A stretch of DNA of 64,000 bases from Eucommia ulmoides (lineage: Eukaryota > Streptophyta > Magnoliopsida > Garryales > Eucommiaceae). Positions 8,851 through 61,392 of the stretch are shown piece by piece. The notes below the pieces were generated by a model that was not told where the DNA came from, ran no database searches, and saw only the letters and a program-made list of their open reading frames with translations. The position numbers and the translations under genes were made by a program. Each line of letters opens with the position of its first letter. The first letter of the stretch is position 1. Location of the stretch: contig CM028334.1 in NCBI GenBank assembly GCA_016647705.1, positions 2,480,001 to 2,544,000 on the forward strand. Reading direction: 5' to 3'.

Positions 8851-9522
8851 TAAAAAAAAAAAAAAAAAATTCTAACCTCTAGCCGCTCTTAGAGAGAAAG
8901 TTTATAGCCGACGGCGGCTAAGATGAAACAACCTCCACACTCACCCACCCTATTCCATTCCCTATGGCCCTTACGCTCCCTTCTGCTCTTTCCCTCTCTA
9001 ATATACTCTCTTTGAAATCTTCTTCCTCTCGCTACGGCAGCAACGCCTCTCAAACCATCCTTGTCGTCATCAAATCTAAACTCTAAATCGATTTTCTTGT
9101 CGTCAGTGTAGCTTCTTCTTGATACTGTTGTTGTGCCTTTGATTTGTTCCATTGCCCGCATTCTTCCATTGTCGTTGTCCGCCTCGTCTGATCTCTCTCC
9201 CTCTTTCCTAAATCACCAATCTCTTTCTATCAAATCTACACTCTAAATCGGTTTTCTTGCCGTCTGTATAGTTTCTTTCAAAAATCCCTAAAGCCAACTA
9301 TGACCTCCAAATGTCCTACAGTAGCTACAATATTATCTTGGGCGGGAAACTTTTTAGGCCCTTGGATCGAACATCCAAGGGCTCAGATACAGTATCACCA
9401 AAGAGATATTTTAGTCCACTAGATTTATCTTGATCCAACAGTCCAAATCAAACCTCACTCTCCTCTTCTTTTTTCCTTGATCTGGCCTATCCCTCTCTTA
9501 TTCTCCGATCTGACCTCTCCAT

Positions 9523-16889: not shown

Positions 16890-17945
16890 TTTATTTATTT
16901 AGGGATAATTGGTCAATAGTTTCAATTAGAAAGTATAATCTTTAATTTATCCTATTTTGATTTTGGGTTAATTAAACTTTACTCCCCTGTGATTTGACCA
17001 ATTTGCACTTAGCTCCTTGTGGTTTGAAAATCGCCACTTACCCCCCCTGTGGTTAGATTTCAAACCACTTACCCTCCTGATATAGGGGGGTAAGTGCAAC
17101 AAATATCTGACCACAGGAGGGTAAGTGGTGATTTTAAAACCAAAGGGGGATAAAATGCAAATTGTCCAAATTACAGGTGGGTAAAGTGCTATTAACCCTT
17201 TGATTATAATTAAGTTGAGTATAAATTTTTGAATTATGTTTTGCCTTGTTTTAGTGTCATGATTAATGATCTCTTATATCTCCAATCAAATGCGGTCGGC
17301 ACCACGCTATCCCTATCTTTTAGATTATTATTTTTTATTTTTTAAATGTGGTGTCACTATTAGGATTTTCCACCAATTATGCCTTTTATTTAAGACTTAG
17401 TCGTAAAATTATTTACTTAAATATTATTCGATCCATAAAAATATAAAAATATCCCTCATTAATTTTTTTTTCTTTTCCCTATTTTTTTTTTCTTTTTTCT
17501 TTCTCCTTTCTCTACCTTTCTGTCCAACCCTCATCCCCCCTCCACACAAATAGCACGACAACCGTACGTCTACCACCACCATCATATTTGGTGCTATCGC
17601 CCCTACCATCCGCCGTCCAGATCCGACGCCACCGCCATTGCCATCCATTTGGGCTTCGGATGGTGGTGTGTGTGCGTGTGTGTGTTTATATATTAGAGAG
17701 AAAGAGTAAGATAGAGAGAGGGAGAGAGAAGGTGATGGTGGTGGCAGTCGTGAATTGTTTAAATAGGTTGGAGAAAGACAGAGAAATGAACTTATATACC
17801 CAAGAGTAGAATAGTTGTTGCATTGACTTCAATAAAAATATTATTATTAAAAGATAAATAGGTAATTAATTATTATTTATCTCCGATAAGGGGTCTCCAT
17901 GATATTTGCCAACAGACAAAAAACATTTGTAGTCAACAGTGATAA
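16890..17945. mobile_element. Non-autonomous element family R1, copy 2, left end lost
   Basis: The left part (TTGGTCAATAGTTTCAATTAGA...) matches 5490-5620 and the right part (TTTCTGTCCAACCCTCATC to GTCTCCATGATATTTGCC) matches 6740-7040. The outermost left inverted end is missing next to the copia LTR end at 16855. A MITE (16965-17198) is inserted in it. No coding capacity; the GT-rich and GA-rich ORFs are incidental. Confidence 0.6.
16965..17198. mobile_element. 234-bp MITE with GGGTTAAT termini (Mutator-like)
   Basis: GGGTTAATTAAACTTTAC at the left pairs with GTAAAGTGCTATTAACCC at the right. The interior is largely self-complementary (CACTTACCCCCC / GGGGGGTAAGTG). Flanks TTTGATTTT and TTTGATTAT agree at 8 of 9 positions, as expected for a 9-bp Mutator-type target duplication. 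The related sequence near 5545 (CTATTTTAATCTGAATTAAG) lacks the insert and serves as an empty site. A related copy lies at 50721-50915. Confidence 0.8.
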
Positions 17946-25584: not shown

Positions 25585-27036
25585 CTAAGATTCGGTTTTT
25601 ATACTAAAAACGTTTCCAATCACGCCAACAATGCTAACTATAACCGCCAAAACCAACATCAACCAACACAAAACCGTCTCCCCCCGACTCAAATGCTGAT
25701 TCATTTTCAACGCGATCAATGCCGGAAACGTAAACCCTACGGTTACCGCAGTTGTCGCACCGGTAAATTTGAAAGCCGTCCAAATATTAGGTATCATTGT
25801 CGATCCGAAGTACACGAGTGCGAGGAGGACAAAAGTCAACGCGAGACACCGTTTTTTGCTGTCTGAAAGAGGCGGCATACCGTCAAAAAACAACGAATCT
25901 ACGGTTTGTCGTAACGAGAAGTGGATAACGGGGAAGACCAGGACCAAATGAAGAACATATCCGACCCGTACAATGTAGTTCAAGGCTGTACTAAATCGAA
26001 TGCCTAGATCCTTGTCGAAATTTGTGAGAACGTCGGATTCAGTGTCGGCTCCGAAGAGCAAATAGCAGGCCACGGAGGTCGAAGCGTATACGAACACACA
26101 GATAACCGTTGTGATTCGTCCAACCCGATTCATCTTTTGAGGGGATCGATCTCTGAGCTCATTGTAGATGGGTTGGACATTGAAATGGCAAACGTAGGCG
26201 TTCGACATGATCGGGATCACAACGAGGAGATCGAGAATCGCCTTTTTAGAGCCGAAATCGGGGGTTATTCTTGGCGTTTCAATCTCCCCTTCAACGAGTT
26301 TGATGAACGCAATGATGAATGCCACAAAGACAAAGACGACAGCTAGGGCTACGGATGCTGCCGAGGTTCCACTCAATGAATCGATTTTGTCTAGTGCGCA
26401 TAGAGGTGCAAGAAAAATGACCAAAATGGCTAGAATCAATAGCTTTCGGTGATCCCAAAAGCCATTCCCTAACCATTGATCGAAAACCCCGACGTGCCGG
26501 ATGGATCCGGACATTACATCGCCCATGATGATCAGATAAACAACTAGAACACCGGCATTTCCGACGATTATACAGATTTCAGATAAGATTCTTGGGGTTT
26601 TGCCTAGTGTGGATTCAACAATTTCCCCGTATGAGGTTGCTTTGCATTGTACGGAGAAACGTACGAGCAATTCGACGCTAATTTCTGATAAAATTCCTAT
26701 CAAAACAATCAAAACAAGTCCGAGAAACAAACCTAGAACCTTCATTGTGGCGGGCAAGGCCATGATTCCGGCGCCTATGATCGAGGTCGTGAGGTTGAAA
26801 ACGGCACCGGATACACCGGAGCCGGATTTATCGGCAGAAACAATCAGCGGCAGATCGTCGAGATCGAGGTCGTCATCGTCGTCTCCGTTTTGCATACTGA
26901 TGTACTCATGGTTCTCGCGATCGCGCGAGGGAAATTTGGCAGATCCAGGGTCTTTGGATCTGGAATCGCCGTTTTGTGCTTGTAATTCCACGAACGAGGC
27001 CTTGGGAAGGGCTGAGTAATTGCTATTCATCGCCAT
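25585..27036 (-). CDS. AVT6: Vacuolar amino-acid transporter, AVT6 type (AAAP/SLC38-like)
   Basis: One uninterrupted frame of 483 residues starting ATGGCGATGAATAGC. The N-terminus is polar and acidic (DDDDDLDLDDLP, about residues 52-63). The amino-acid/auxin permease signature follows at the first membrane helix (VFNLTTSIIGAGIMALP), and about eleven hydrophobic segments in all can be counted to the end, including IPIMSNAYVCHFNVQPIYNEL in the middle. Length and motif order are those of plant AVT6 proteins, which export neutral and acidic amino acids from the vacuole; the exact subgroup (A-E) is not determined. The minus strand upstream shows a possible 5'UTR donor (GATTCC/GTAAG at 27161/27160) with candidate acceptors near 27103 and 27080. 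No frame damage. The gene converges with the membrane-protein gene to its left. Confidence 0.93.
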   Translation of the reverse strand: MAMNSNYSALPKASFVELQAQNGDSRSKDPGSAKFPSRDRENHEYISMQNGDDDDDLDLDDLPLIVSADKSGSGVSGAVFNLTTSIIGAGIMALPATMKVLGLFLGLVLIVLIGILSEISVELLVRFSVQCKATSYGEIVESTLGKTPRILSEICIIVGNAGVLVVYLIIMGDVMSGSIRHVGVFDQWLGNGFWDHRKLLILAILVIFLAPLCALDKIDSLSGTSAASVALAVVFVFVAFIIAFIKLVEGEIETPRITPDFGSKKAILDLLVVIPIMSNAYVCHFNVQPIYNELRDRSPQKMNRVGRITTVICVFVYASTSVACYLLFGADTESDVLTNFDKDLGIRFSTALNYIVRVGYVLHLVLVFPVIHFSLRQTVDSLFFDGMPPLSDSKKRCLALTFVLLALVYFGSTMIPNIWTAFKFTGATTAVTVGFTFPALIALKMNQHLSRGETVLCWLMLVLAVIVSIVGVIGNVFSIKTES

Positions 27037-28655: not shown

Positions 28656-31318
<2,663 letters not shown>

Positions 31319-40939: not shown

Positions 40940-41350
40940 AATTTTATATTTTCATCCGTGAACATTCACAATAATACAAATAGTAGTGTGAATAATTACA
41001 ATGGTGATCGTGATTAAATTTTGTGCGCGTTCTATGTTTTGAATTAATGTGAACATTCATAACAGTTACAAAAGTATGAATGTTCATACCGATAATCTTA
41101 AATCTACTGTAATACAAGTTACCGTTTCAAAATAGTGTGAATATTCAAAATAATACGAATGGTATTGTGAATGTTTCCCATTAATAATATTATATTTAGT
41201 TTAAATGTTCACACTATTTCGAAATAATAATTATTAAAACACGAGACTATTGTACTAATGTGAATGTTCATATCATATAGAAATTGACATTTTTATTGTT
41301 CACAAATATACATTCACACTGCCATGTTTTGAACATTCAGAAATTTATAT
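40940..41350. repeat. Cluster of GTGAAYRTTCAC palindromic motifs
   Basis: GTGAACATTCACAATAATAC, GTGAACATTCATAACAG, TATGAATGTTCATACC, GTGAATATTCAAAATAATACG, AAATGTTCACACTATTTCG, GTGAATGTTCATATC and AACATTCAG recur in both directions at 30-60 bp spacing, often with AATAATACGAAT. The pattern suggests subterminal binding repeats of a DNA transposon, or a decayed palindromic element. No ends found. Confidence 0.55.
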
Positions 41351-41399
41351 TTTTTGTTTTAAAAAAAATATATAACATATATATAAAATAATTTTTTAA

Positions 41400-41740
41400 T
41401 ATGGGCCCCAAGGCCTACCAATATATTAGAGATGTCTCCATCCATCATTTTTCATTTAATCAAAACCCCTTGCTCAAATCGTGTAGAATACTCCCCTCAA
41501 GAAGCGCATGAAGGTGTGTATACATGGTTAGTGTTCTTGGCTCAATTACCCAAATCCGAACCTTCCATCTTCAGAATCTTGCTATAGAAAAGTTGTTGTC
41601 CATATTCTTCCCCAAAAATCACAACCCACTTCGCCTTCCCCAAAAAGAGAATCCGTTCGCCGCCGTCTGCATTGACGATTTTAGCCCTTTCAAAGTCAAC
41701 GATTCCAAAAGTCAATAGATATATACCTGTCAGAAAATGA
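41400..41740 (+). other. G+C-richer segment with an unrecognised 64-codon frame
   Basis: An ATG at 41524 opens VLGSITQIRTFHLQNLAIEK and a Pro/Phe/Asn-rich stretch ending at 41718. Base composition rises compared with the surroundings. I recognise no domain and no splice partner. It lies beside the Mutator transposase remnant, so it could be a captured gene fragment; this is only a guess. Confidence 0.25.
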
Positions 41741-41837
41741 CAAAAACTTTAGTTATTCAAAATGCATTATTTACTATACATCAAATATTATGGTTAAAAT
41801 AATAGTAATAATTGTATTTGTTGTTGTACAGCAAAAA

Positions 41838-42990
41838 TTACATGAAATACAATAACAAAAATAATTGATAGCACGCTAAAAAACAACTATTTATCCCCCG
41901 CTTACCGTTATTCCTGTCTTTGCCGGTCGCGCCAAGCAACGTGTCTTTATACTTTACTTTTAGAAAAGTTCCGTCAAAAAAGAGTAGAGGTCGTACATAT
42001 TTAAAACTAGCCATGCTAGCACTGAATGAAACAAAAAGTCGATTAAAACAACCAGTACTCATATCATATTCAATTTCAAAACAAATTCCGGGGTTTGTCT
42101 CCATGCTCACTTCTTTATATCATCTCAACTCGTCATATCCACTACCATAATCCTCAAAAACATCTACTCTAACTTTTTCAACCCCCCACCATGCATGGTG
42201 ATAACTTATGTCTAACCCATAGTTATTTATAAATTCTTTAACAACGTCAATAGGACGCCTTAGTGGTTGAACATTTAACGTGTTTTTTATACAACTCAAT
42301 ACAACTTTGGAATTAATCCTACCATTTTTCCTGGTTCGGACTGCAGCACTACACGTGTGAGTATTGTTTATGTTTTTTATGTAAAAATATTCATTCTTAC
42401 TATCAACACTCGCATGTACGAACCATTCACATTCCCGCTCAACCTTATATGCACAATATGTTACAATACGAGATGGTTTGTTCTTATGGTAATCAAATTT
42501 AAATCCAATTTCAATGGAATATTTTATCAAGCAATCCCTAAAATCATTCAACCCCCTTTTAAAAACTTGTCATACCTCACGAATTAAATATCTCCAATCA
42601 GCAGATATTGTTGTTGACTTGGTTGGGCAGTATGGTACCAACACACTTTCATCTTCGTCGCTTTCTGGATTATCATTGTAATAGTCAGTGTCAGTTCTAG
42701 TTTCATCTCCGCTACTCATCAACATACATTAACTGTATGGATAAATCAATATATGTCAGATTAAGACTTTTTGAAATCTTTTGGAGATTACATAATGACT
42801 TCATGTCTCCTAAGTAACAATTAGGATGGTTGGGGATTGAATAGGGCAACTTAAAATTTCCCACGCGCAACCCCGTGTACTTCTCGCACACGCGGTCAAA
42901 TAAATCCTCAATGATCGATGTGCTATTAACCTCAAAAATGTGTGTGGTTCCCATGTGTTTAGCCAAAGTATGTTCGTCCAATTTTTCATT
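41838..42990 (-). mobile_element. Mutator-like (MULE) transposase gene, N-terminal half
   Basis: On the minus strand: a MuDR N-terminal region (VGNFKLPYSIPNHPNCYLGD, DLSIQLMYVDE), an acidic spacer (DNPESDEDES), the MuDR DNA-binding domain (FRDCLIKYSIEIGFKFDYHK...CEWFVHASVD, NNTHTCSAAVRTRKN) and the first part of the MULE catalytic domain (RPLLFFDGTFLKVKYKDTLL, ATGKDRNNG) with the first catalytic Asp in FFDGT. In-frame stops include a TAG after YVDE (42712), a TGA in the EV*QVFKRG stretch (about 42574) and a TGA after YDELR (42120). It breaks off after KDRNNG, so the remaining catalytic residues, zinc knuckle and right end are missing. Terminal inverted repeats were not found. Dead. Confidence 0.85.
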
Positions 42991-43670
42991 TCCTAATCAA
43001 AATAAGAAATATTCAATCAATAATAATTGTACCACAAATATAGAAACAAATATAATTGTACATCAAAATATTCAACTGATTATAACTGTACAACAAAATT
43101 CAACTATGGAAGGTTATGCAGCAATATTCAACCAATTATAACTGTACATTCAATATTCAACATATTATAACTGTATAGTAAATATTCAACCAATTATAAA
43201 ATGTAGAGTAAATATTCAACCAATTATAATGGTACATCAATATTCACTCAATACAAATTGCACAGTCCATTCCTAAAATTGGGAACAACTTTATCGATTG
43301 AACAAACAAAATAAAACTCGGAACAAATTTGTTCTGATTTCAAAAGCTTATCCAAAAAATTATCAATAGGAAATCATAAAACTTGTTCTTGTTTTTGTTC
43401 CTAATTTTTGAAAAACAGTAACGACAAATTGGGCAAATATTTGAAACATTCCTAAAATCTAAAAACAAATTGGGAACAGAAACAGTCAATTTCTAAAATT
43501 GGGAACAGATTAATCGATTTTTCAAACAGATGTGGAAAACTCGCAACCAAATATGTTATGTTTCAGAATTTTATCCAAAATATTAAGATGAAATCAAAAA
43601 ATTGGTGCATATTTTTGTTCTTATTTTTTCAAAACAGTAACAATAACTTAGAAACTAGTAAATACATATA
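42991..43670. repeat. ATATTCAAYYAATTATAACTGTACA repeats and GGGAACAGAAAC block
   Basis: From 43010 to 43260, TAATTGTACATCAAAATATTCAACCAATTATAA-like units repeat about six times. From 43270 to 43660 a segment CCTAAAATTGGGAACA...TTATCCAAAA...GTTTTTGTTCCTAATTTTTG is present twice (about 43272 and 43492, period ~220 bp). Both are non-coding. Confidence 0.6.
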
Positions 43671-43674
43671 AGAA

Positions 43675-43850
43675 ATTTGAACCTAGGAAGTTTGATATGC
43701 TGCTCAACAGATGATGCAGTTGCCGACGATGTGTTTCCGATGATGCTAACCGTCGCTTTCGCTAACTCTGCCGGCGTGTAGAGGTGTGTGCGATTTCGGG
43801 TGTTTGCAATGGCCTTAATTATCTTCTTTGCAATTTAGGGCATGAGAAAT
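43675..43850 (-). other. Exon-like open segment upstream of the MULE remnant
   Basis: Minus-strand frame NTRNRTHLYTPAELAKATVS..ASSVEQHIKLPR ends at an AG/GTTCAA position (about 43687) that could be a donor. A TAA lies in frame just upstream, and no ATG was found. It may be the 5' leader or first exon of the MULE or a captured fragment. Not recognised. Confidence 0.25.
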
Positions 43851-44510
43851 GTGAACGGAAAGTTTAATCTCTTCCGTTTTTGTAGCTTGGTGAATGAATT
43901 TCTTGGATTTTTCCTTATTTAGCTTGATTGTTGTTTCCAAAAATACCTAGGAGAGCTCTTCAAATATCAGCCGCATGTGATATATTTCATGTGTAAATTT
44001 GGGGCTCTCTCAAAATAAAAATAAATGAATGGGTTTTTAAGTGTTTTGGCATGTCTATTGGGGCTCATTCAAATATCAAGTGTCAAAATAGGTTTTTAAT
44101 TAAAAATTCCTATATAAAAATAAAAAGCGTGAGTTGTATATTAAAATGATATTTTTTTTATTAGTTTTTTTTTTTTGGTAATTAATTTTTTAGTCCTCTA
44201 TAGAGATCCAATAGAGAAAAAAGACCCCCTGACATGAATAATTAAGTTTTCAGACCCCACAATTTTTTTAGGAAAAAATCTTTCATTATGACCCCCTTGT
44301 TAACATTTATTTACAAGTCTGTCATTCTGTCATTATGCAATAAAACAAATTATGCAATAAAGGGTGTTAACGTTAACGTAAATTTGTTCAAGTAAATACC
44401 ACTTACCTATATTACAATATTACATTGGAAATTGACGTTAATGTTGTTGCATCCATTTTTTTTTTTTTTTGCAAGTTAACGCATTATCTCCCAATCTGTC
44501 TGATTTGTGC

Positions 44511-45560
44511 ATTACGTTAACGTTAACTCGTTTTACCACTAAACGTGTTGTACGTTTTTTCTTTTGAATATTTAGTATATTTTGTGTGTATTTACATTAA
44601 TACATCTTGTTCATTTGTGTGTGTGTTAACGTTAATACATTTTTATTTTTTTTTCATATTACCGTCTCTTTCATTATTTGTTTTGTGTGCATTAACGTTA
44701 ACGCATTTTGGGTGAGTTTGGGTTAACGTTAATGCACATTTTGTTATCTCTATCTGTATTAAACGTTAATATTTTTAATGTTGTCCAAAAAATGTGTGAA
44801 ATAAAAATCACTCATAACATAGGCAAACTTAGTTATATTAACGTTAACGCAATTACAACTCAGCACATTAACTTAATTTCGTTAACGTTAACGCGATTAC
44901 AACCCAGCATATTTTACTTTATTGCGTTAACGTTAACACAATTACAACTCAACAACTTAACTTAATTGCGTTAACGTTAATGCAATTACAAACCCAATAC
45001 ATTTAGTTGCATTAACGCTCAACACAATTACAAACCAGCCATTAACGTATTTTTTATTTTTATTTTTTGTGCATTACGTTAACGTTAACTCATTTTACCA
45101 CCAAACGTATTGTGTGTGTTTTTTCTTGAATATTTAGCGTATTTTGTGTGTATTTAAGTAAATGCATCTTGTTCATTTGTTTGTGTATTAACGTTAATGC
45201 ATTTTTTTTTTTGTGTTTCACATTACCGTCTCTTTCATGATTTATTTTGTGTACATTAACGTTAACGCATTTGGGTGAGTTTACGTTAATATTAATGCAC
45301 ATTTTGTTATCTCTCTCTGTATTAAATGTTAATGCATTTAATGTTGTCCAAAAAATGTGTGAAATAAAAATCATTCAAAATACAGACAAACTTAATTGCA
45401 TTAACGTTAACGCACTTACAACCCAACACATTAATTTAATTGCGTTAACGTTAACGCAATTACAATTCAGCACATTTAACTTAAATTGCGTTAATGTTAA
45501 CATAATTACAATCCAACATACTTAACTTAATTGCGTTAGCGTTAACGTTAATGCAACATG
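44511..45560. repeat. Old ~560-bp tandem duplication with GTTAACGTTAAC arrays
   Basis: GTGCATTACGTTAACGTTAACTC at 44511 returns at 45071 and the following ~350 bp correspond (TGAATATTTAG.GTATTTTGTGTG, ACCGTCTCTTTCAT, TTGTTATCTCT.TCTGTATTAAA, AATGTTGTCCAAAAAATGTG). The copies differ by many substitutions and small indels. Within each, units of TTGCGTTAACGTTAACGCAATTACAA..CA repeat every ~55 bp. Confidence 0.8.
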
Positions 45561-46117
45561 AACAACACCGCCGAATCAAACATTAAACCCAGAAAAAAAG
45601 AGTGGGAGATGTGCGAATTTGGCTAGTGGCCGGCGGTGGTTGCCGGATCTGACTAATGGTGACCGATGGTTGTCCAAAACGAAAATGAACACCACCACCG
45701 CCAACAACACCGTTGAATCAAATATCAACACCGCCGAAGAATACCATTCAAAATACAGACAAACTTAATTGCATTAACGTTAACGCACTTACAACCCAAC
45801 ACATTAATTTAATTGCGTTAACGTTAACGCAATTACAATTCAGCACATTTAACTTAAATTGCGTTAATGTTAACATAATTACAATCCAACATACTTAACT
45901 TAATTGCGTTAGCGTTAACGTTAATGCAACATGAACAACACCGCCGAATCAAACATTAAACCCAGAAAAAAAGAGTGGGAGATGTGCGAATTTGGCTAGT
46001 GGCCGGCGGTGGTTGCCGGATCTGACTAATGGTGACCGATGGTTGTCCAAAACGAAAATGAACACCACCACCGCCAACAACACCGTTGAATCAAATATCA
46101 ACACCGCCGAAGAATAC
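45372..46117. repeat. Exact-looking 373-bp tandem duplication
   Basis: 45372-45744 and 45745-46117 read the same base for base as far as I can compare by eye, from CATTCAAAATACAGAC to CGCCGAAGAATAC. The junction shares ACCA. Such identity next to strongly diverged 560-bp copies means a very recent event or an assembly duplicate. Confidence 0.9.
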
Positions 46118-46465
46118 CACCAAAACGAACAACATCCATCACCATCAGAGAAATATATGTATATAGAGAGAAATATATATATATATATACACACACACAG
46201 ATAAACGAGAACAAATCCACAAATCCAAAACACCCATTTCGCAAATTACCGACCACTAACTTCGACATGAAATCGATTAGGGAAAACAGAGAACAAATCA
46301 AACAAATCGATCACTACCTTCGACAACCACCAACCAACACCGCCGATCGAGCATCAAACGCCGCTGAAGAACACAACCAAAACGAACACCATCGCCGATC
46401 AAGCATCAAAACAAGAAAAAAAAATGAAAAAAACAAGAAAACCCAGATCTGGATTTCCAGATCTG

Positions 46466-46515
<50 letters not shown>
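46466..46515. repeat. Run of 50 A
   Basis: 50 consecutive A follow an inverted pair CCAGATCTGG / CCAGATCTG (46443-46464). Strand slippage makes the exact length unreliable. Confidence 0.9.
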
Positions 46516-46517
<2 letters not shown>

Positions 46518-47269
46518 ACACCGCTATCGTGAACAAGAAGGAGAAAGGCAGCTCCTCGTCGGAGGAAGTCGCTCAAGGACGAGCTCACTTGAGGCGACGG
46601 CGGGTTAAGAGGAGCGTTGATCGTCGAGCTGTTGTTGGCTCACAGAGCCGGCACCAAACGATTGGAGTCCTCCACTTGGGCGGCGATTCACCCGGCGGCA
46701 GGAGGCGGTGTTGGCTAGAGGTACAAAATCCGACGTTCATAACGCCGAGGACGGCGGCACTCCTTTGCAAGTGAAGGCTACTCAAATGATGAAGTTTCTC
46801 TTCGAAAGGAAGAGGGGCTCGATAGGTTTAGAGAGTGAGTTTAGAGTATGAAAGAGAGAGAGGATGAGTGATAGTTAACGTAAATAAGAGAGATAGTTTG
46901 TTCAGGGGTATATGTGTCTTTTTAATATTCTTTTGTATTTTTTGAGAACTAAAAACTAAACTACATGTACGAAAAAGTCTGATCCCTAATCATACATATA
47001 AAAATAATTTTTTTCTGAATGGTCTCTCTATGAAGGATTATATTTCTATTTTTTTTTTTACGTTGAAAATGTTTATAATTTTGTTTTTTTTCATACACGA
47101 GTTTTGTTCCACAATAAATGAATTTTTAATTTTTATTTATATAATTGTATATTTTGTAAAATAACATTTAAATATTGATATTCGTGAGATCGTTTTAGTC
47201 TACCCATGTAATAAAAAGTAGGAACAAAACCGTTAAAACTTTTTACCGCAAGCCACCCTCCTGTGTCTC

Positions 47270-48852
47270 TCGCTTAGTCGCTTCTCCTGTGTCTCTCGCT
47301 CTTCATTTTGCACGCCGCCGCCGCCATCACAGGAATTACCGCGCCATCCTCACCTCGCCATCTAGGGTGGAGCAATTTTCTCCGACGCTCAGGATGGAGA
47401 CTTTTGGCCGATTGCGTCTTCTCTGACGCTCAGGATGTCGGACCTGAAGCAACCACCGTCGCCGTTCATCGCCATCACGGCGCCCAGGTACTCTTTGTTC
47501 CCTCGATCTCTCAATTGATGCACGACCCTCTCTCTCAATCGCATCTGTCTATCTCTCTCTCGCTCTCTCAGTCGCCGAACCAGCAACGTTGAAGGCGAGG
47601 CACCCAAGACCACGAACCCAAACCACTTCCACCACCACCATCACAGCCACGATTTGGCCAGACCCACATTCGATTTTCCATATTTGGGTTTGAATTGCCC
47701 AGATCTGGCCGTCCCCCTACACTATCCCACATAGCAGCCATCCATCATCACCAATCTAATTGTAGATCTAAATATAGTTCAAGTGAAATCAAATCCCTGT
47801 TTCTTGAGTTTCTTCCATGTTTATGGTAACATTGAATTTCGCTCTCTGTCTTACAGTTTTGAATCACGAGCACCAACATTTTTAGCTCAAGACTCTACTG
47901 GATTTCACATCTGAAATCTAGTTTTCAATTATTGGGTTTCGTCCAATAATTTAAGGTCCGTTTGTCTTGATTTCACATCGATTAAAATTGGTCTGGTCTA
48001 TTACAACACACTTCTGAATTATTTTAGGTAGGACTTAGTTAAATAGAAGTTCTTTTCCTAGATTGAACCAAACACTTCCTCTGAGCTGACGTGAGAGATG
48101 TCGAGCTGAGGGAACTTCAATAACTGATTAATTGAAAATTACTAGAATTTGAGAATTGAAGGACAACCAAACAGGACCTAACCATTAATACTGATATTTG
48201 CTCTCAACCTTCACTGCAGGTTTTAAATTATCAGCCATAATATCATAAAGCTGATTTATTTAGTTTTGCAATTAGAGTTGTTGCTTTGTATGCTCTTCGT
48301 TGAATTTTGACTGAGATTGTTTCTCTATTATATCTTATGGTTTCAGTTTATGTCTTCTGGCCTTTCCGCTTTCCAAATTCTCTCTCTCTCTCCCCGGGAG
48401 ATGCAAATTTGCCTCTCAGTCTGACAGGATGCCTAAATCGCTTAGTGATTTGGAATGAAGACACTGAAATGAGTTGATTTGGATGCAAATTTGCCTCTCA
48501 ATCTGATAGGATGCCTAAATCGCTTACTGATTTGGACTGAAAACACAGAAATGAGTTGATTTGGAATGAAAACAGTGAAACATTTGTGATTGAATGCTTT
48601 ATCAGTTGGACTTATTCTTTGCTTTATACATGTGCTTTTTAGAGGTTAATGGCATCTTTTGGAAAAATCTGATTCTTCTGGGCTTGTTCCTTCAGGGCTC
48701 CTTTTCCTTCAGGGCTCGTTCGGTTGTGTAAATTATCCTCTTTTTTATGATTTGATTTGTAGATTTCTCCATTTACGTATGATTTACGTATCGTTTTGAT
48801 TCTTCATTCTTTAGAGGGAAATTATATTCTAAGTGATCAAAGATTTTCGCAG
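47270..48852 (+). promoter_or_regulatory. 5'UTR exon and leader intron of the IPK2-type gene
   Basis: A C/T-rich leader (from ~47270) ends CGGCGCCCAG/GTACTC at 47487, and a 1365-bp intron closes at TTTTCGCAG (48852), 34 bp before the start codon. The intron has a long pyrimidine-rich, T-rich body as in plant leader introns that raise expression. An 82-bp tandem duplication (48401-48482, 48483-48564; ATGCAAATTTGCCTCTCA..) lies inside it. Placed from splice-site patterns only. Confidence 0.55.
48401..48564. repeat. 82-bp tandem duplication in the IPK2 leader intron
   Basis: ATGCAAATTTGCCTCTCARTCTGAYAGGATGCCTAAATCGCTTA is repeated with a few substitutions; both copies end ATGAGTTGATTTGG. No function evident. 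Confidence 0.9.
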
Positions 48853-48886
48853 ATCAAGTTCTGAGGTTTGATCAAAATCTGCTGAC

Positions 48887-49774
48887 ATGCTCAAGATCCC
48901 AAATCATCAGGTTGCCGGACACCAAGCCGGTGCAGGAAAGCCCGGCCCCCTCATAGACGATTCCGGCCGCTTCTATAAGCCTCTTCAGGGAGACGAACGT
49001 GGATCCCATGAAGTCGCTTTTTACACCTCATTCTCTTCAAACCCTAGAGTTCCTGACCACATTCGAAAATTCTTCCCTATATTTTACGGCACTCAACTCA
49101 TAGACGCCTCCGATGGGTCAGGCTTACAATCCCACATCGTTCTTGAAGACCTTGCTTCCTCTAGCGTCAACCCCTCGATAATGGATATCAAGATTGGATC
49201 TCGAACATGGGCCCCACAATCGCCAGAAGACTACATTCAAAAATGCTTGAAGAAAGACCGAGAATCCTCAAGCATCTCATTGGGATTCAGGATATCCGGT
49301 TTGCAAATCTACGGGAAAAGCAAAGGATCGGGATACTGGAAGCCCAATCGGAAGTCTGTACAGAATCTTACTGCTGACAAAGCCCGGTTAGTTCTTAAAA
49401 AGTTTGTTTCTTCCAATCCTAAGGTTGAAACAGACCCAGATTGCCATTTTGCATCGACTGTTTATGGCGGTTCTACTGGGATTCTAGCTCAATTGATGGA
49501 GCTGAAATCCTGGTTTGAAGATCAAACATTGTTTCATTTCTATGCGGGTTCGATTCTCATGATGTATGACGAAAATAAGGAGGGGGCATTGGTGAAGCTT
49601 ATCGATTTTGCTCATGTGATTGAAGGTGGAGGAGTGATTGATCATAATTTCTTGGGTGGTCTCTGTTCATTGATAAAGTTCATCTCCGAAATACTTGCTG
49701 CGACTCCAGAGGAGTGCAAAATCGAAGCCTATCCAACCGATTTCGGGCTTTCTTCAAGTAATGGTACTATTTGA
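48887..49774 (+). CDS. IPK2: Inositol polyphosphate multikinase (IPK2 family)
   Basis: Single coding exon of 295 residues, starting MLKIPNHQVAGHQAG; Arabidopsis IPK2 proteins are of the same size and are also intronless in the coding part. The inositol-binding signature PxxxDxKxG is PSIMDIKIG at residues 96-104. An SSLL-like segment (GSILMMYD, 221-228) and the metal/ATP site LIDFAH with D240 follow. Known relatives phosphorylate Ins(1,4,5)P3 stepwise to InsP5 at the 6- and 3-positions in the nucleus and cytosol. All key residues are present. Promoter and leader lie to the left (47270-48852). The last 14 codons with the stop and about 750 bp of 3' flank are repeated at 51089-51895. Confidence 0.95.
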   Translation: MLKIPNHQVAGHQAGAGKPGPLIDDSGRFYKPLQGDERGSHEVAFYTSFSSNPRVPDHIRKFFPIFYGTQLIDASDGSGLQSHIVLEDLASSSVNPSIMDIKIGSRTWAPQSPEDYIQKCLKKDRESSSISLGFRISGLQIYGKSKGSGYWKPNRKSVQNLTADKARLVLKKFVSSNPKVETDPDCHFASTVYGGSTGILAQLMELKSWFEDQTLFHFYAGSILMMYDENKEGALVKLIDFAHVIEGGGVIDHNFLGGLCSLIKFISEILAATPEECKIEAYPTDFGLSSSNGTI

Positions 49775-49934
49775 ATGAATTTCTTCCATATGAGTTTGAC
49801 TGCTTGCTTCTCATTAATAATGGCTTGGGAATGTTCTTAAAATCTTATGGATTTGATTTGTGTTGAAGCTATAATTTGGGTACTGAAAGTTACCCCCAAA
49901 AAGGGAATGTTTTACTTTGCAATCTGAAAACAGT

Positions 49935-50470
49935 TTACGGTAGCATTTGGATCCTAGGTGTATGCTTTTCTGTTTCTATTTCTAATATAACTTAGATGAG
50001 AATTTTGTTTCCGTTTTGGAGTATTCTTGGAATAGAAACATGTTTTGTAACGACCATTATTCTAAAATTGGTTCTTTTAATTTATGAGAATAAAGGCAAT
50101 AATCATTTTTTGTTGCAACATTTATTTATTTTTAAGGGAGTCTCGGCGCAACGGTAGAAGTTGTCATCATGTGACCTAGAGGTCACGGGTTTGAGTCGTG
50201 GAAACAGTCTCTTGAAGAAAAAAAAAGGTAAAACTACGTACAATAGATCTAAGTGGTCCGACCCTTCTCTAGACCCCGCGCATAACGGGAGCTTTGTAGC
50301 ACCCGGGTTGCCCTTTTTTTTTTTTTTTTAAAATGTATGGTGGCTGGCATGTTGGTAATGTGAATAGTTTTGTTGGAGTAAATAGGAATCGACATTTTTT
50401 TGTTTCTCAGATTTTTAATAAATTCAAGAATTACTGCTAAAATTTTGGAAAGAGAAAATGTGTACCAAGT
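49935..50470. mobile_element. M430 MITE copy with an Au SINE inserted, downstream of IPK2
   Basis: GGTAGCATTTGGATCC, TAACGACCATTATTCTAAAATT, TTGTTGCAACATTT, then (after the SINE) ATGTATGGTGGCTGGC and TTTTGGAAAGAGAAAATGTG match the two halves of the 21178 copy. Its counterpart in copy 2 spans 51297-51845. Confidence 0.65.
50135..50329 (+). mobile_element. Au SINE, copy 1
   Basis: tRNA-like head with A box (TCGGCGCAACGGTAGAAG) and B box (GGTCACGGGTTTGAGTCG), then the conserved body GTCTCTTG, TACGTACAATAGA, GTGGTCCGACCCTTC, CCGCGCATAACGGGAGCTT and GGGTTGCCC with a poly-T end. This is the plant Au SINE plan. It is a retroposon, not a tRNA gene. Confidence 0.92.
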
Positions 50471-50720
50471 TTTGGTATAATATCAGCATAGCTAAAACGT
50501 TATGCGGTTAGCTCTAAGCTAAGCGCTAGGGGCGATAGGTTGAATTTTAGAGAAGACGACAACGACGGCGATGGCTGGAGAAGGCGACAACGATAATTAT
50601 GGAGGGAGAGCCACCGTTGGGCATGGCCATCCAGATCCGATTTCGCTACAACCAACGCCGACCAAAGAGAGAGAGCGAAAATGAGAGCAAAGAAGGAAAT
50701 GGGAAGGAGCTAACTGCTAA

Positions 50721-50915
50721 GGGTTAATTACACTTTACGCCTCAATAATTGTGAATAATTATGGAAGAGCAAAATTGATATTTCACATTTTCCATCAATA
50801 GAGTTAGCGTTGCACTTGGATCCACAAACCACAGGAGGGATAAGTGACGACGTTCAAACTACAAGAGAGTAAAGTGCAAATAGGTCAAATCACATGGGTA
50901 AAGTGTAATTAACCC
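50721..50915. mobile_element. 195-bp MITE with GGGTTAAT termini
   Basis: GGGTTAATTACACTTTACG and AAAGTGTAATTAACCC are inverted tips matching the 16965-17198 MITE. Flanks (AACTGCTAA and TATTCACAG) show no duplication, so it is older or was rearranged. It lies in the spacer between the two IPK2-tail copies. Confidence 0.75.
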
Positions 50916-51088
50916 TATTCACAGTCAACTACTTCATTTTTGCATATGTTATTATGATCTTGTTTTCATCTTGTGCTCCAAAGGCATTATATCTATTATT
51001 AAATTTATAAATGTGAAAAAAATGTCATTAAATTCAACCAGATTGAAATTTTTAGACAATAATTTTTCATCTTAAATATTTCATCTCC

Positions 51089-51895
51089 CTATCCAACCAA
51101 TTTCGGGCTTTCTTCAAGTAATGGTACTATTTGAATGAATTTCTTCCATGTGAGTTTGACTGCTTGCTTCTCATTAATAATGGCTTGGAAATGTTCTTAA
51201 AATCTTATGGATTTTATTTGTGTTGAAGCTATAATTTGGGTACTGAAAGTTACCCCCAAAAAGGTGTGTTTTACTTTGCAATCTGAAAACAGTTTGTGGT
51301 AGCATTTGGATCTTAGGTGTTTCTGCCTGTTTCTGTTTCTATTTCTAATATAACTGACATGAGAATTATGTTTCCGTTTTGGAGTATTCTTGGAATAGAA
51401 ACATGTTTTGTAACAATTATTATTCTAAAATTGTTTCTTTTAATTTATGAGAATAAAGGCAATAATCATTTTTTGTTGCAACATTTATTTATTTATTTAT
51501 TTTTAAGAGAGTCTTGGCGCAACGGTAGAAGTTGTCATCATGTGACCTAGAGGTCACGGGTTTAAATCGTGGAAACAGTCTCTTGAAAAAAAAAACAAGG
51601 TAAGGCTACGTACAATAGACCTAAATGGTCCGACCTTTCCTTGGATCGCGAGCATAACAGGAGTTTTGTAGCACCCGGGTTGCACTTTTTTTTTTTTTTT
51701 TTTTTTTAAAGTATGGTGGCCGGCGTATTGGTAGTGTGAATAGTTTTGTGGGAATGAATAGGAATCGACATTTTTTTGTTTCTCATATTCTTAATAAATT
51801 CAAGAATTACTCCTAAAATTTTGGAAAGAGAAAATGTGTACCAAGTTAAAACGTTATGCGGTTAGCTCTAAGCTAAGCGCTAGGGGCGATAGATT
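51089..51895 (+). pseudogene. IPK2-tail tandem duplication, copy 2 (3' fragment of IPK2)
   Basis: Carries a copy of the last IPK2 codons (frame YPTNFGLSSSNGTI, stop at 51133), changed at one residue relative to copy 1 (D to N), and its 3' flank. Copies are close to identical apart from a few substitutions and a missing ~20-bp piece (TTGGTATAATATCAGCATAG) near the right end. The copy has no promoter or upstream coding part and cannot encode a kinase, but it carries the native end of the mRNA, probably including the poly(A) signals. Confidence 0.88.
51506..51707 (+). mobile_element. Au SINE, copy 2 (by segmental duplication)
   Basis: Same insertion point and context (TTTATTTATTT.TTTAAG) as copy 1, so it was carried by the 1360-bp duplication and did not insert on its own. 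A and B boxes recognisable; the B box is slightly changed (CACGGGTTTAAATCG). Confidence 0.9.
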
Positions 51896-52305
51896 GTGCA
51901 GTAGAGGAGGAAACAAGTAACCAAAAAACCTGGTTTAATATAGACATGTTAAACAAGTCTCCCAATACCTCTAAAAACTGGGGGGATGCCAATTGCCCAG
52001 TAAAAGTACATACAATTTTCCTAGCTACTATTATGCTGAAATGTACACAAAATTCCTCACATTGAAAATGTAACGCGGGATCATATTTGAGTGTGAGTAT
52101 CTGATTGACCAATTTGAGGGATCCTTAATGGCCATTGAAAACTACTTTGATTTTTGGCCTATGACATGACTTTGCTTTGATGATCAACACAACAATCCAA
52201 ATGTGTTCCCATCATATGTACTTTTCATCTTCCCCCACTAAAAACCCACACCACCAAACAAATAATTAAGCAACTTCATAGCTATTTCCTTGAGCAAAAG
52301 AAAAA

Positions 52306-57121: not shown

Positions 57122-58462
57122 TATATTGAAATGCAAAGGACAAAAAACATTATGACAAAAAATAAAAGTACAACAAAATAAGAGGTTTTATATATTTATT
57201 TATTTAATTAATTAATTATGATTATGTAATTAAAGTCAAACTAAGTTCCTTACGCAATTGAAATTTAGGTTGTCTTAAATGATAATGGTCGGGTTCACAG
57301 CATGGAAAGGGTCATCAAAAAATTCAAGGATAAATTGTCTTCTAGTCTAAGTCACATAAGCAACGTCGGTTATGCGTTTGGATGGTTTATTCCGGCGAAC
57401 GTCGATTGTTGGTATATTATTTTGTCTAATTATCATTTTATCCCTTCTATTTTAAAAGACTATATTTTATCTATTTTTATTTTTGAACAAAGTGATAAAT
57501 TTTTATTTTTTATTTTTTTCATAAAATATGCTTAAAATAAATGAAATTTTGACGAGATATTGTCTTTTATTTTATTTCTTATTTAATTTTTTTATCATAA
57601 ATATTTTGAAAAAAATTATATTAAATTTAAAATAAACGGATTAATTTTTCTGTTTCATCTAAAAATTAGATAAAAAAAATTAATTTCATATATTTTTAAG
57701 TATATTATTTTAATTTAAATAGAAAAAAGAGATAAATAGATAATTCAGTAAAGTAGTGGGGTAAAAGAAAATTTATCCAAAATTCAATAAATTAATAAAT
57801 AGCACATAATTAAAAATTATTTTTTTCATTTTTAGGAATATTTAATTTTTGGAATCAATTTTACATGGTTTGAAAAATTGAAAAACAAGTCTACATATTG
57901 CAATGATATTGTCGCCCTCAACCACAAGACACCACTAGGGTCAAAATAGAATTTTAAAAAATAAAAATAATATATATATATATATAAAACATAGAAAATT
58001 GAATATGAAACTAGTCAATCATTCATATTATTTTAATTTTAGTTTTTTCTCCTTTTATTTGTTACCATTTTGAATATTTTTTAATTCTTCAATTAACGTT
58101 AACTACATTGAATTTATTATATTGACATATGAAAATTATATTTGATGTGATGGTTACTAGTTAGTAGTGGTTAATGACAATTCTGTAGCGGTAACAAAGG
58201 TTTGGCAACCAGTGTTTCATAAGAGGCGGTTGTGAGTGATATAGTTAAAGTTAATTGGGTGTTATAGTCAATATTAACTAAGTCTAAAAAAAAATTAGAC
58301 TATGTTTGATAAGAATTTTTTTGGTACTTTTTTGCTTAAAAGTAAAAAAAAAATATTTATTCTTAAAACTTGAGTTTGTTTCGCTCTTAAAAGCATAATT
58401 TGCTTTTAAAAAAATAAAAAAATAAAAAAAAAAAAAATATATATATATATATATACATAGAA
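57122..58462. other. AT-rich intergenic DNA, nothing recognised
   Basis: A segment at 57280-57420 (GTCATCAAAAAATTCAAGGA...AACGTCGATTGTTGG) is slightly richer in G+C but holds no recognisable domain. The rest is A/T with an (AT)n tract at 58437-58455. Confidence 0.55.
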
Positions 58463-58640
58463 AGGAAGTCTTGGCGCAACGGTAAAAGTTGTCGCCATGT
58501 GATCTGGAGGTTACGGGTGCGAATTGTGAAAACAGTCTCTTGCAAAAAGTAAAGTAAGATTGCGTATAATAGATTTAAGTGGTCCGACCCTTCTCCTGAT
58601 CCCGCGCATAACAGAAGCTTTGTAACACCGGGTTGCCCTT
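58463..58640 (+). mobile_element. Au SINE, copy 3
   Basis: A box TTGGCGCAACGGTAAAAG, B box GGTTACGGGTGCGAATTG, then GTGGTCCGACCCTTCTCCTG, CGCGCATAACAGAAGCTTTG and GGGTTGCCCTT. It lies between (AT)n tracts on both sides (58437-58455 and 58641-58662), probably an AT-rich insertion site. More diverged than copies 1 and 2; an independent insertion. Confidence 0.9.
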
Positions 58641-60130: not shown

Positions 60131-60885
60131 CAACCTCAATTTCACAATTGTTTCCAATCATTCTTCCACTATTGTTAAATAAGAAAACATTTTTTTTTTA
60201 TATAATTTTTTATTAAAAATATTTTTTAATATTTAGTCTTCAAAGAATATTTACTAATCCATTTTTATATTTTCTTAAATCATTGCTCTCTCATCTGATA
60301 TAATTTATAATTGATGTCACTTTGCAATAAAGAGAGAACGGTCACTTCTTTAATAAACTATTTAAATTCGTGAAAAATATACTATTTAATGCATTCAACT
60401 AAGTTAACAAATTAGGAACTTTCTTTTGTATTTAATTAATTTTAATACTATGATAATTAATGTTGGGAGTTAGATGAATAATTCATAAAATTAAAATTTT
60501 ATCACATACAGTCCATGCGCTACAATATTTTTTTTTTAAATTTAAAGTGAATATAATATATAAAATTACAGTAACTTTTATGTTGTACAGTGATTTTGAA
60601 TGTTTAATAATAGATTTAAATTTTAAAAAGAAATTATTGTAATACATGAATTACCTAAAGTAAAATTTTAATTTTTAAAAAAAAAATTAAAGTTTGCCGA
60701 TAAATCTTCCTCATAGTCATAGGGAACCCCCAAGAAGGCACCTCTCTTTCTCTCTCTCTAAACGTCTCTCTCTCTCTCTAAACTCTCTCTCTCTCTAAAC
60801 GTCTCTCTCTCTCAATAAATTGATCAAAGGAACTCAGAAATTCATTATAAACCCACTATCATTAGAATTTAATCCTCCTTTTTTC
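60131..60885. promoter_or_regulatory. Upstream region and CT-rich leader of the VQ gene
   Basis: AT-rich up to 60740, then CTCTCTTTCTCTCTCTCTAAACGTCTC repeated three times (60744-60814), a pyrimidine leader typical of plant 5'UTRs. An in-frame upstream ATG at 60820 would add 22 residues (IKGTQKFIINPLSLEFNPPF); the ATG at 60886 gives the family-like start. Confidence 0.45.
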
Positions 60886-61392
60886 ATGGCTTCTTCGAAT
60901 TCCAAAACCACTTTCATCCAGGCCGACCCTTCTACTTTCCGGGCGGTGGTTCAGCGGCTGACCGGTGCAACCCATGACCCAACACCCCATCAAGTACTCC
61001 CGTCACGCCCCGCCGGGAAACATAGCTCCGTCGACATGGGTCCCCGCAGACCGGCCTTCAAGCTTCACGAGCGACGGCAGAGTTCCAAAAAACTGGAGAT
61101 TAAGCTCAACATCAACGGCGTCAGTTCTTCAGTTTCTCCGGCCCAAATAAGGATGAAGTCTCTCGGGTTCGCCGGCGAGAATCTGATGGTCTCGCCGGTT
61201 TCTCCGCTGGATCTGCTGCCGCGTTTCAGTCCCAGAACGCCGTCGGAGGAGGAGGAAGAGAGGGCCATTGCCGGAAAATGTTTCTACCTGCACCCGAGTC
61301 CACTCAGTACGCCAAGAGGGTCAGACCCGCCGGAACTCCTGCCATTGTTTCCTACCAACTCGCCGGGAGGTCATTCATCTTCTTCTTCTTAG
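60886..61392 (+). CDS. VQ-motif protein (VQ4/VQ31-type MAPK-substrate group)
   Basis: Intronless, 168 residues from MASSNSKTTFIQADPSTF. The VQ motif FRAVVQRLTG is at residues 18-27 and fits FxxxVQxLTG. A basic middle (FKLHERRQSSKKLEIKLNIN) is followed by a Ser/Pro region with several S/T-P sites (MVSPVSPLDLLPRFSPRTPS), an acidic run EEEEERAIAGKCFYLHPSPL and LLPLFPTNSPG, the tail that marks the VQ4/VQ13/VQ31/VQ33 branch. Members bind WRKY factors through the VQ helix and can be phosphorylated by MPK3/MPK6 at S/T-P sites, in the nucleus, tuning defence. Intact; the branch assignment is by tail motif, not by a tree. Confidence 0.92.
   Translation: MASSNSKTTFIQADPSTFRAVVQRLTGATHDPTPHQVLPSRPAGKHSSVDMGPRRPAFKLHERRQSSKKLEIKLNINGVSSSVSPAQIRMKSLGFAGENLMVSPVSPLDLLPRFSPRTPSEEEEERAIAGKCFYLHPSPLSTPRGSDPPELLPLFPTNSPGGHSSSSS

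Follow-up and report, generated by a model that had tools for sequence, protein, structure and literature searches.

In the CACTA elements En/Spm and soybean Tgmt*, many copies of one short motif are located inside an end (PMC2613891). In En/Spm, a protein encoded by the element binds this subterminal motif, and the same is presumed for Tgmt*; the motif differs between CACTA families, and the Tgmt* repeats are asymmetric (PMC2613891). Tandem-TIR Mutator-like elements, Pack-MULEs among them, are non-autonomous plant elements whose tandemly multiplied termini contain transposase sites and which sometimes carry a gene fragment inside (PMC3310237). That study required TIRs of 50 bp or more and, next to the ends, a 9-11 bp target duplication with no more than two mismatches. 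The Arabidopsis SIRCs consist of short direct repeats, some with palindromes, that are spaced by diverse DNA, and an origin within MITEs has been suggested for them (PMC10342631). SIRCs contain two to eight repeats, and candidates that carried tandem repeats were discarded by the authors.

Here, a 2.85-kb block at positions 44191-47040 of a 64-kb window, which is the whole stretch of DNA that was analysed, is compared with these systems. Its left part is a 1.57-kb array of palindromic sites, and its right part is GCC-rich and gene-like. With about even confidence, we read the block as what remains of a cut-and-paste (TIR) DNA transposon that was non-autonomous and had expanded putative binding sites, and no superfamily is assigned to it. 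A non-autonomous element accounts for the array, the filler joined to it, and the inverted tips; a minisatellite explains nearly as much.

Array of palindromic sites

The motif array is real. A sequence-only reading of the window had described dense palindromic hexamers in the block, and this description is borne out by counts far above those of dinucleotide-preserving shuffles of the block, which rule out a chance origin of the motif. The hexamer GTTAAC occurs 29 times inside the block and 14 times outside it (43 in the window), whereas 500 shuffles contained a mean of 1.65 and a maximum of 6. Exact copies of TTAACGTTAA number 18 in the block and 19 across the window, with one located elsewhere, and the expected mean from 500 shuffles is 0.034, with a maximum of 1. 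The block also holds 18 copies of CGTTAACG and seven of GTTAACGTTAAC.

Alignment of the sites results in an 18-bp palindromic consensus, TGCGTTAACGTTAACGCA, which is a better description of the repeat unit. At a match of at least 14/18, the window contains 23 sites, all of them within 44363-45928. This array, to which no strand is assigned, includes the 18 exact TTAACGTTAA cores. The 23 sites occupy 21 separate places, because two pairs overlap (45532/45538 and 45905/45911). A looser cut-off of 12/18 gives 43 matches in the window, of which 30 lie in the block; the other 13 all score exactly 12/18. The earlier estimate of about 25 copies is right if degenerate units are counted, but it exceeds the number of TTAACGTTAA itself. 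The sites had also been described as having a spacing of about 55 bp. They do not extend through the 2.85 kb but are confined to the array, apart from one weak site (13/18) at 46865 in the right part of the block, and the gaps between them are irregular, ranging from 6 to 232 bp and often measuring 44-46 bp. The first 18 sites are separated by gaps of 150, 109, 66, 31, 115, 44, 45, 44, 108, 109, 68, 30, 115, 44, 46, 45, and 6 bp, and the 18th site is followed by gaps of 232, 44, 46, 45, and 6 bp. Seven of the ten exact cores in the part with the spacing of about 44 bp form the centres of palindromes of at least 26 bp, with up to two mismatches allowed.

A 24-base pattern from the array had no matches in viral contigs. 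The 18-bp palindrome was found in 31 stretches of bacterial or archaeal genomes, 29 of which carry a single TTAACGTTAA. The sites resemble LacI-type operators, and we take them to be unrelated operators with no bearing on this locus. The Fibrobacter contig JAAYYB010000366.1 has three exact TGCGTTAACGTTAACGCA sites (2993 and 3384 of one stretch, 6803 of another), which are possibly operators of one bacterial regulator.

Nested duplication and CpG decay

The array grew through nested tandem duplication in three layers: a unit of about 44 bp, a block of about 563 bp, and a copy of 373 bp. Repeats of the 44-46-bp unit are located at 44838-44991, 45389-45547, and 45762-45920. The old duplication is formed by block A (44504-44980, plus strand), which contains eight exact TTAACGTTAA, and block B (45066-45545, plus strand), which is offset from it by about 563 bp. 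The two blocks are 87.3% identical, with a K2P (Kimura) distance of 0.130. If substitutions accumulate at 6.5e-9 per site per year, an assumed rate that is doubtful for this plant, the duplication might be about 10 million years old. In the tandem duplication with a period of 373 bp, the first copy (45372-45746, plus strand) and the second copy (45745-46119, plus strand) are 100% identical over 375 bp, and the duplication is either very recent or an assembly error. It supplied, as an exact copy, the five rightmost of the 23 sites. Because it crosses the junction between the array and the gene-like part, the two must have been joined before this latest duplication.

The three layers yield most of the copies without transposition, and they argue for an alternative reading of the block, possible at somewhat less than even probability, as an immobile complex minisatellite. 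A short intergenic palindrome would have been multiplied in place by slippage and unequal exchange, the tips would be a chance match, and the right part would be unrelated.

The alignment of blocks A and B also records how the repeat has decayed. CpG columns changed more often (10/46) than other columns (46/430; Fisher p 0.049), as would happen in a repeat that is methylated and silenced, and nine of the ten changed CpG columns are transitions. CpGs within AACGTT (six kept, three changed) are no better preserved than other CpGs (nine kept, five changed), which is consistent with the minisatellite. Cores are slightly more identical than spacers, at 0.90/0.87, 0.90/0.88, and 0.95/0.87 from the loosest to the strictest definition of the core (values that carry no significance test). 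When the recent copy is set aside, 16 of the remaining 18 sites retain the central CpG, compared with 18/36 for the outer CpGs (Fisher p 0.007, calculated from sites that are not independent). On its own, this retention would suggest a protected core, but the comparison of block A with block B does not confirm it, and selection on the motif cores is not claimed. The ratio of observed to expected CpG is 1.76 in the array and 0.98 in the window, mostly because of the motif, as 44 of the 66 CpGs are located in TTAACG or CGTTAA. Because CpGs change more than other positions between blocks A and B, with no clear protection of the motif cores, the alignment gives no support for a present function. 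Judging from these patterns, we read the block as a repeat that was probably once methylated and is now decaying without clear constraint.

An inositol polyphosphate kinase (IPK) reading frame of 295 codons, with an almost full-length match to the Pfam IPK model, is located at 48887-49774 on the plus strand, and the block ends 1.85 kb before its start codon. The palindromes could be a regulatory cluster of this gene, bound by a putative dimeric host transcription factor; bZIP sites have an ACGT core, and TTAACGTTAA contains ACGT. The retention of the central CpG would fit such a role. However, large duplications and CpG decay are unlike a constrained promoter, cores differ little from spacers between blocks A and B, and the CpGs of AACGTT fare like the others, which makes a regulatory cluster improbable. 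Because the block lies upstream of the IPK reading frame, changes in the length of the array could matter for the gene.

The palindromes might also pair within a single strand or transcript into long hairpins, leading to putative siRNA silencing or cruciform extrusion. A 173-nt piece of the array, folded as single-stranded DNA, reaches -29.4 kcal/mol, compared with -11.7 kcal/mol (sd 2.3) for its shuffles (z -7.65, 0/200 as good), and long helices are predicted for a 1,011-nt piece folded as RNA, a length at which no shuffles were folded. However, any array of palindromes would fold this strongly, and the single palindromes are short, with arms of 5-17 nt and up to two mismatches. A structure-forming element is improbable, and we give it very little weight.

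Ends, right part, and surroundings of the block

The left candidate tip, TAGTCCTCTATAGAGATCCAATAGAGAAAAAA (44191-44222, plus strand), matches the inverted right candidate tip, whose reverse complement is TAATCCTTCATAGAGAGACCATTCAGAAAAAA (47009-47040, minus strand), at 24 of 32 positions. The tips as written in the sequence-only reading were recovered at 44194-44209 and, inverted, at 47021-47037. Ungapped, the two ends agree at 13/16, 17/25, 24/32, and 25/40 positions. In gapped alignments, the score of the 40-bp tips was reached by 0/1000 shuffles and 1/3000 random genomic pairs, that of the 80-bp ends by 1/1000 and 24/3000, that of the 120-bp ends by 14/1000 and 72/3000, and that of the 200-bp ends by 428/1000 shuffles. 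The two ends are thus alike over about 32 bp only, and longer comparisons sink to the background. Gapped alignment of the 400-bp regions around the ends gave a best score of 69, which 22/300 control places reach, and this alignment was not that of the tips in register.

The tips are the sole pair reaching 24/32 in 800 x 800 positions around the two ends, which counts for a transposon. Equally good inverted pairs are present at 5/150 random places of the same geometry in the window, where a pair needed at least ten G or C in its left arm and the draw could include the block itself; this counts against a transposon and for a minisatellite. However, a minisatellite would not explain that the array and the gene-like part are together enclosed by the strongest 32-bp inverted match nearby. 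Two other 16-bp pairs bridging the array, 5.7 and 6.9 kb apart, beat the tips (14/16 vs 13/16); these pairs, which comprise four overlapping 16-bp windows, are without a target duplication. A search for alternative ends covered left ends at 41001-44400 and right ends at 46000-50500; among complexity-filtered windows bridging the array, none paired at 20/25 or 29/40, thresholds below which the tips themselves also fall.

Neither an 8-9 bp target duplication with one mismatch or none nor one of 10-11 bp with at most two flanks the tips, in agreement with the earlier observation that none was found; the absence of a duplication in register also favours the minisatellite. The matches recovered under these limits are T-rich, with a right end at 47042 or beyond. 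When two mismatches are allowed throughout, five AT-rich matches are found no more than 4 bp from the tips, but in none of them are the two ends in register; one of the five, a 9-bp match (7/9) with ends at 44190/47036, puts the tips 5 bp out of register. Both tips begin with TA (44191-44192 and 47039-47040), and TTA is present at 44190-44192 and 47038-47040 if one tip shifts by a base. The tips would allow a TA or TTA duplication of the kind made by Tc1/mariner or PIF/Harbinger elements, which is too short for evidence in AT-rich DNA.

The window was also scanned for inverted ends of 20 bp with at least 16 matching positions and an 8-11 bp duplication; this gave two results, neither of them the element. 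One, inside the array, was produced by the array's own duplication, and the other is the unrelated 451-bp candidate described below. BLAST of 44000-47300 detected no other copy of the element within the 64-kb window; five places outside the block were matched, all of them short simple-sequence matches from 46152-46206 and 46408-46436. Tips shortened to 14-15 bases occur at six other places in the window with 2-3 mismatches, and the full tips at none. The earlier claim that the block is one transposon retains the unusual pair of tips in its favour and is weakened by the control places with equal scores, the lack of a convincing target duplication, and the single copy in the window.

The GCC/GA-rich, gene-like part (46120-46900, plus strand) contains an A run at 46466-46515. 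Directly before this run of 50 bases, a hairpin-prone inverted pair, CAGATCTGGA / TCCAGATCTG, is located at 46444-46465. No reading frame in the array reaches 100 codons, and seven reading frames of 46090-46848 compared with Pfam gave no match above a curated cut-off and no transposase. At a lenient Pfam cut-off, four of five pieces of the right part had no family and one had six weak families below the curated cut-offs; another frame of the right part matched FAM32A (E 0.0068), under its cut-off. The piece at 46621-46848 had two non-significant PDB matches, both to ankyrin proteins (E 0.67 and 1.5). The best composition-adjusted tblastn match of an ankyrin consensus in the window is at 46747-46806 (E 3.7, non-significant), and in phmmer a frame at 9281-9382 scores as well as the ankyrin hint of the right part. 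The ankyrin-like reading-frame trace at 46620-46709 and 46747-46806 is doubtful, and a captured gene in the right part is not claimed, since the Pfam matches are below the cut-offs and the ankyrin matches are non-significant. No RNA families or tRNAs were detected at default thresholds (the tRNA search was ARAGORN with the bacterial code).

The window resembles flowering-plant nuclear DNA and consists of AT-rich, repeat-rich DNA around its genes. Ten of its reading frames were scanned in Pfam, which identified, in addition to IPK, an amino-acid transporter (25585-27036, minus strand), a DEAD-box helicase in two pieces (29088-30008 and 30485-31318), and a VQ-motif protein (60820-61392). A direct duplication, 49728-50542 / 51088-51896, is 89% identical, with its second copy 1.36 kb further on; it begins in the last 16 IPK codons and copies the end of the reading frame together with downstream DNA. 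Three related short repeats at 50134-50315, 51510-51687, and 58462-58640, which are 79-83% alike where compared, resemble Au-type SINEs of flowering plants. A 451-bp candidate element unrelated to the array (57328-57778) has inverted ends matching at 16/20 and an exact 9-bp duplication, AAAATTCAA, features that a small Mutator-like element would have. A possible small inverted-repeat element at 50720-50916 starts with AGGGTTAATTACACTTTAC and ends with GTAAAGTGTAATTAACCCT, and its right half resembles 16965-17054 and 17110-17199.

Proposed origin and relation to known systems

The transposon relic that we prefer is favoured by the confinement of the array to one block of the 64 kb and by a neighbourhood rich in other repeats; the presence of the array on the left side only, the one copy in the window, and the lack of a recognised transposase count against it. 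The left subterminal region may have borne a palindromic site for a dimeric transposase or an accessory DNA-binding protein, which would have been supplied by an autonomous partner element. Slippage, unequal exchange, or interrupted gap repair could have multiplied this site, first as the unit of about 44 bp, then as the block of about 563 bp, and then as the 373-bp block, with the right part serving as a GCC-rich, gene-like filler. Cooperative binding of a putative protein to the palindromes is plausible. The motif, its enrichment, and the nested duplications are shown, whereas it is inferred that the block once moved, that the tips are its true ends, and that the palindromes were occupied by a protein. 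It is unlikely, at a probability well below that of the relic itself, that the block represents an undescribed family of plant DNA transposons in which TGCGTTAACGTTAACGCA at the left end, bound by a dimeric element-encoded protein, was amplified into a long one-sided array. In the open-access literature, three papers contain GTTAACGTTAAC and 22 contain TTAACGTTAA; judged by titles and the openings of abstracts, none of them is about a transposon, which does not show the element to be undescribed. If other copies share the tips, elements that differ in the number of sites would form a natural series on the gain of binding sites at transposon ends. If no copies share them, the locus is a clear record of the growth of a palindromic minisatellite through nested duplications.

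The array differs from the SIRCs in its 23 sites and in its construction by tandem duplication. No 8-bp target duplication of the hAT type with at most one mismatch is present at the tips, where only AT-rich 6/8 matches out of register were found. The block may resemble the TNPA-type subterminal repeats of CACTA elements in that one short motif is reiterated near an end. In contrast to them, the motif is palindromic and its 23 sites are on the left side only; CACTA...TAGTG tips are absent, as the tips read TAGTCC and, inverted, TAATCC. Unlike the tandem-TIR MULEs described above, the block has terminal likeness over about 32 bp and no 9-11 bp duplication in register, and its ends (24/32, then 25/40) do not form a MULE-type TIR of at least about 50 bp. 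Because the element lacks defining features of each group, it is placed in neither CACTA nor the Mutator-like elements. Any function that it once had may have been like that of CACTA subterminal arrays or of the tandem ends found in some Mutator-like elements (PMC2613891, PMC3310237).
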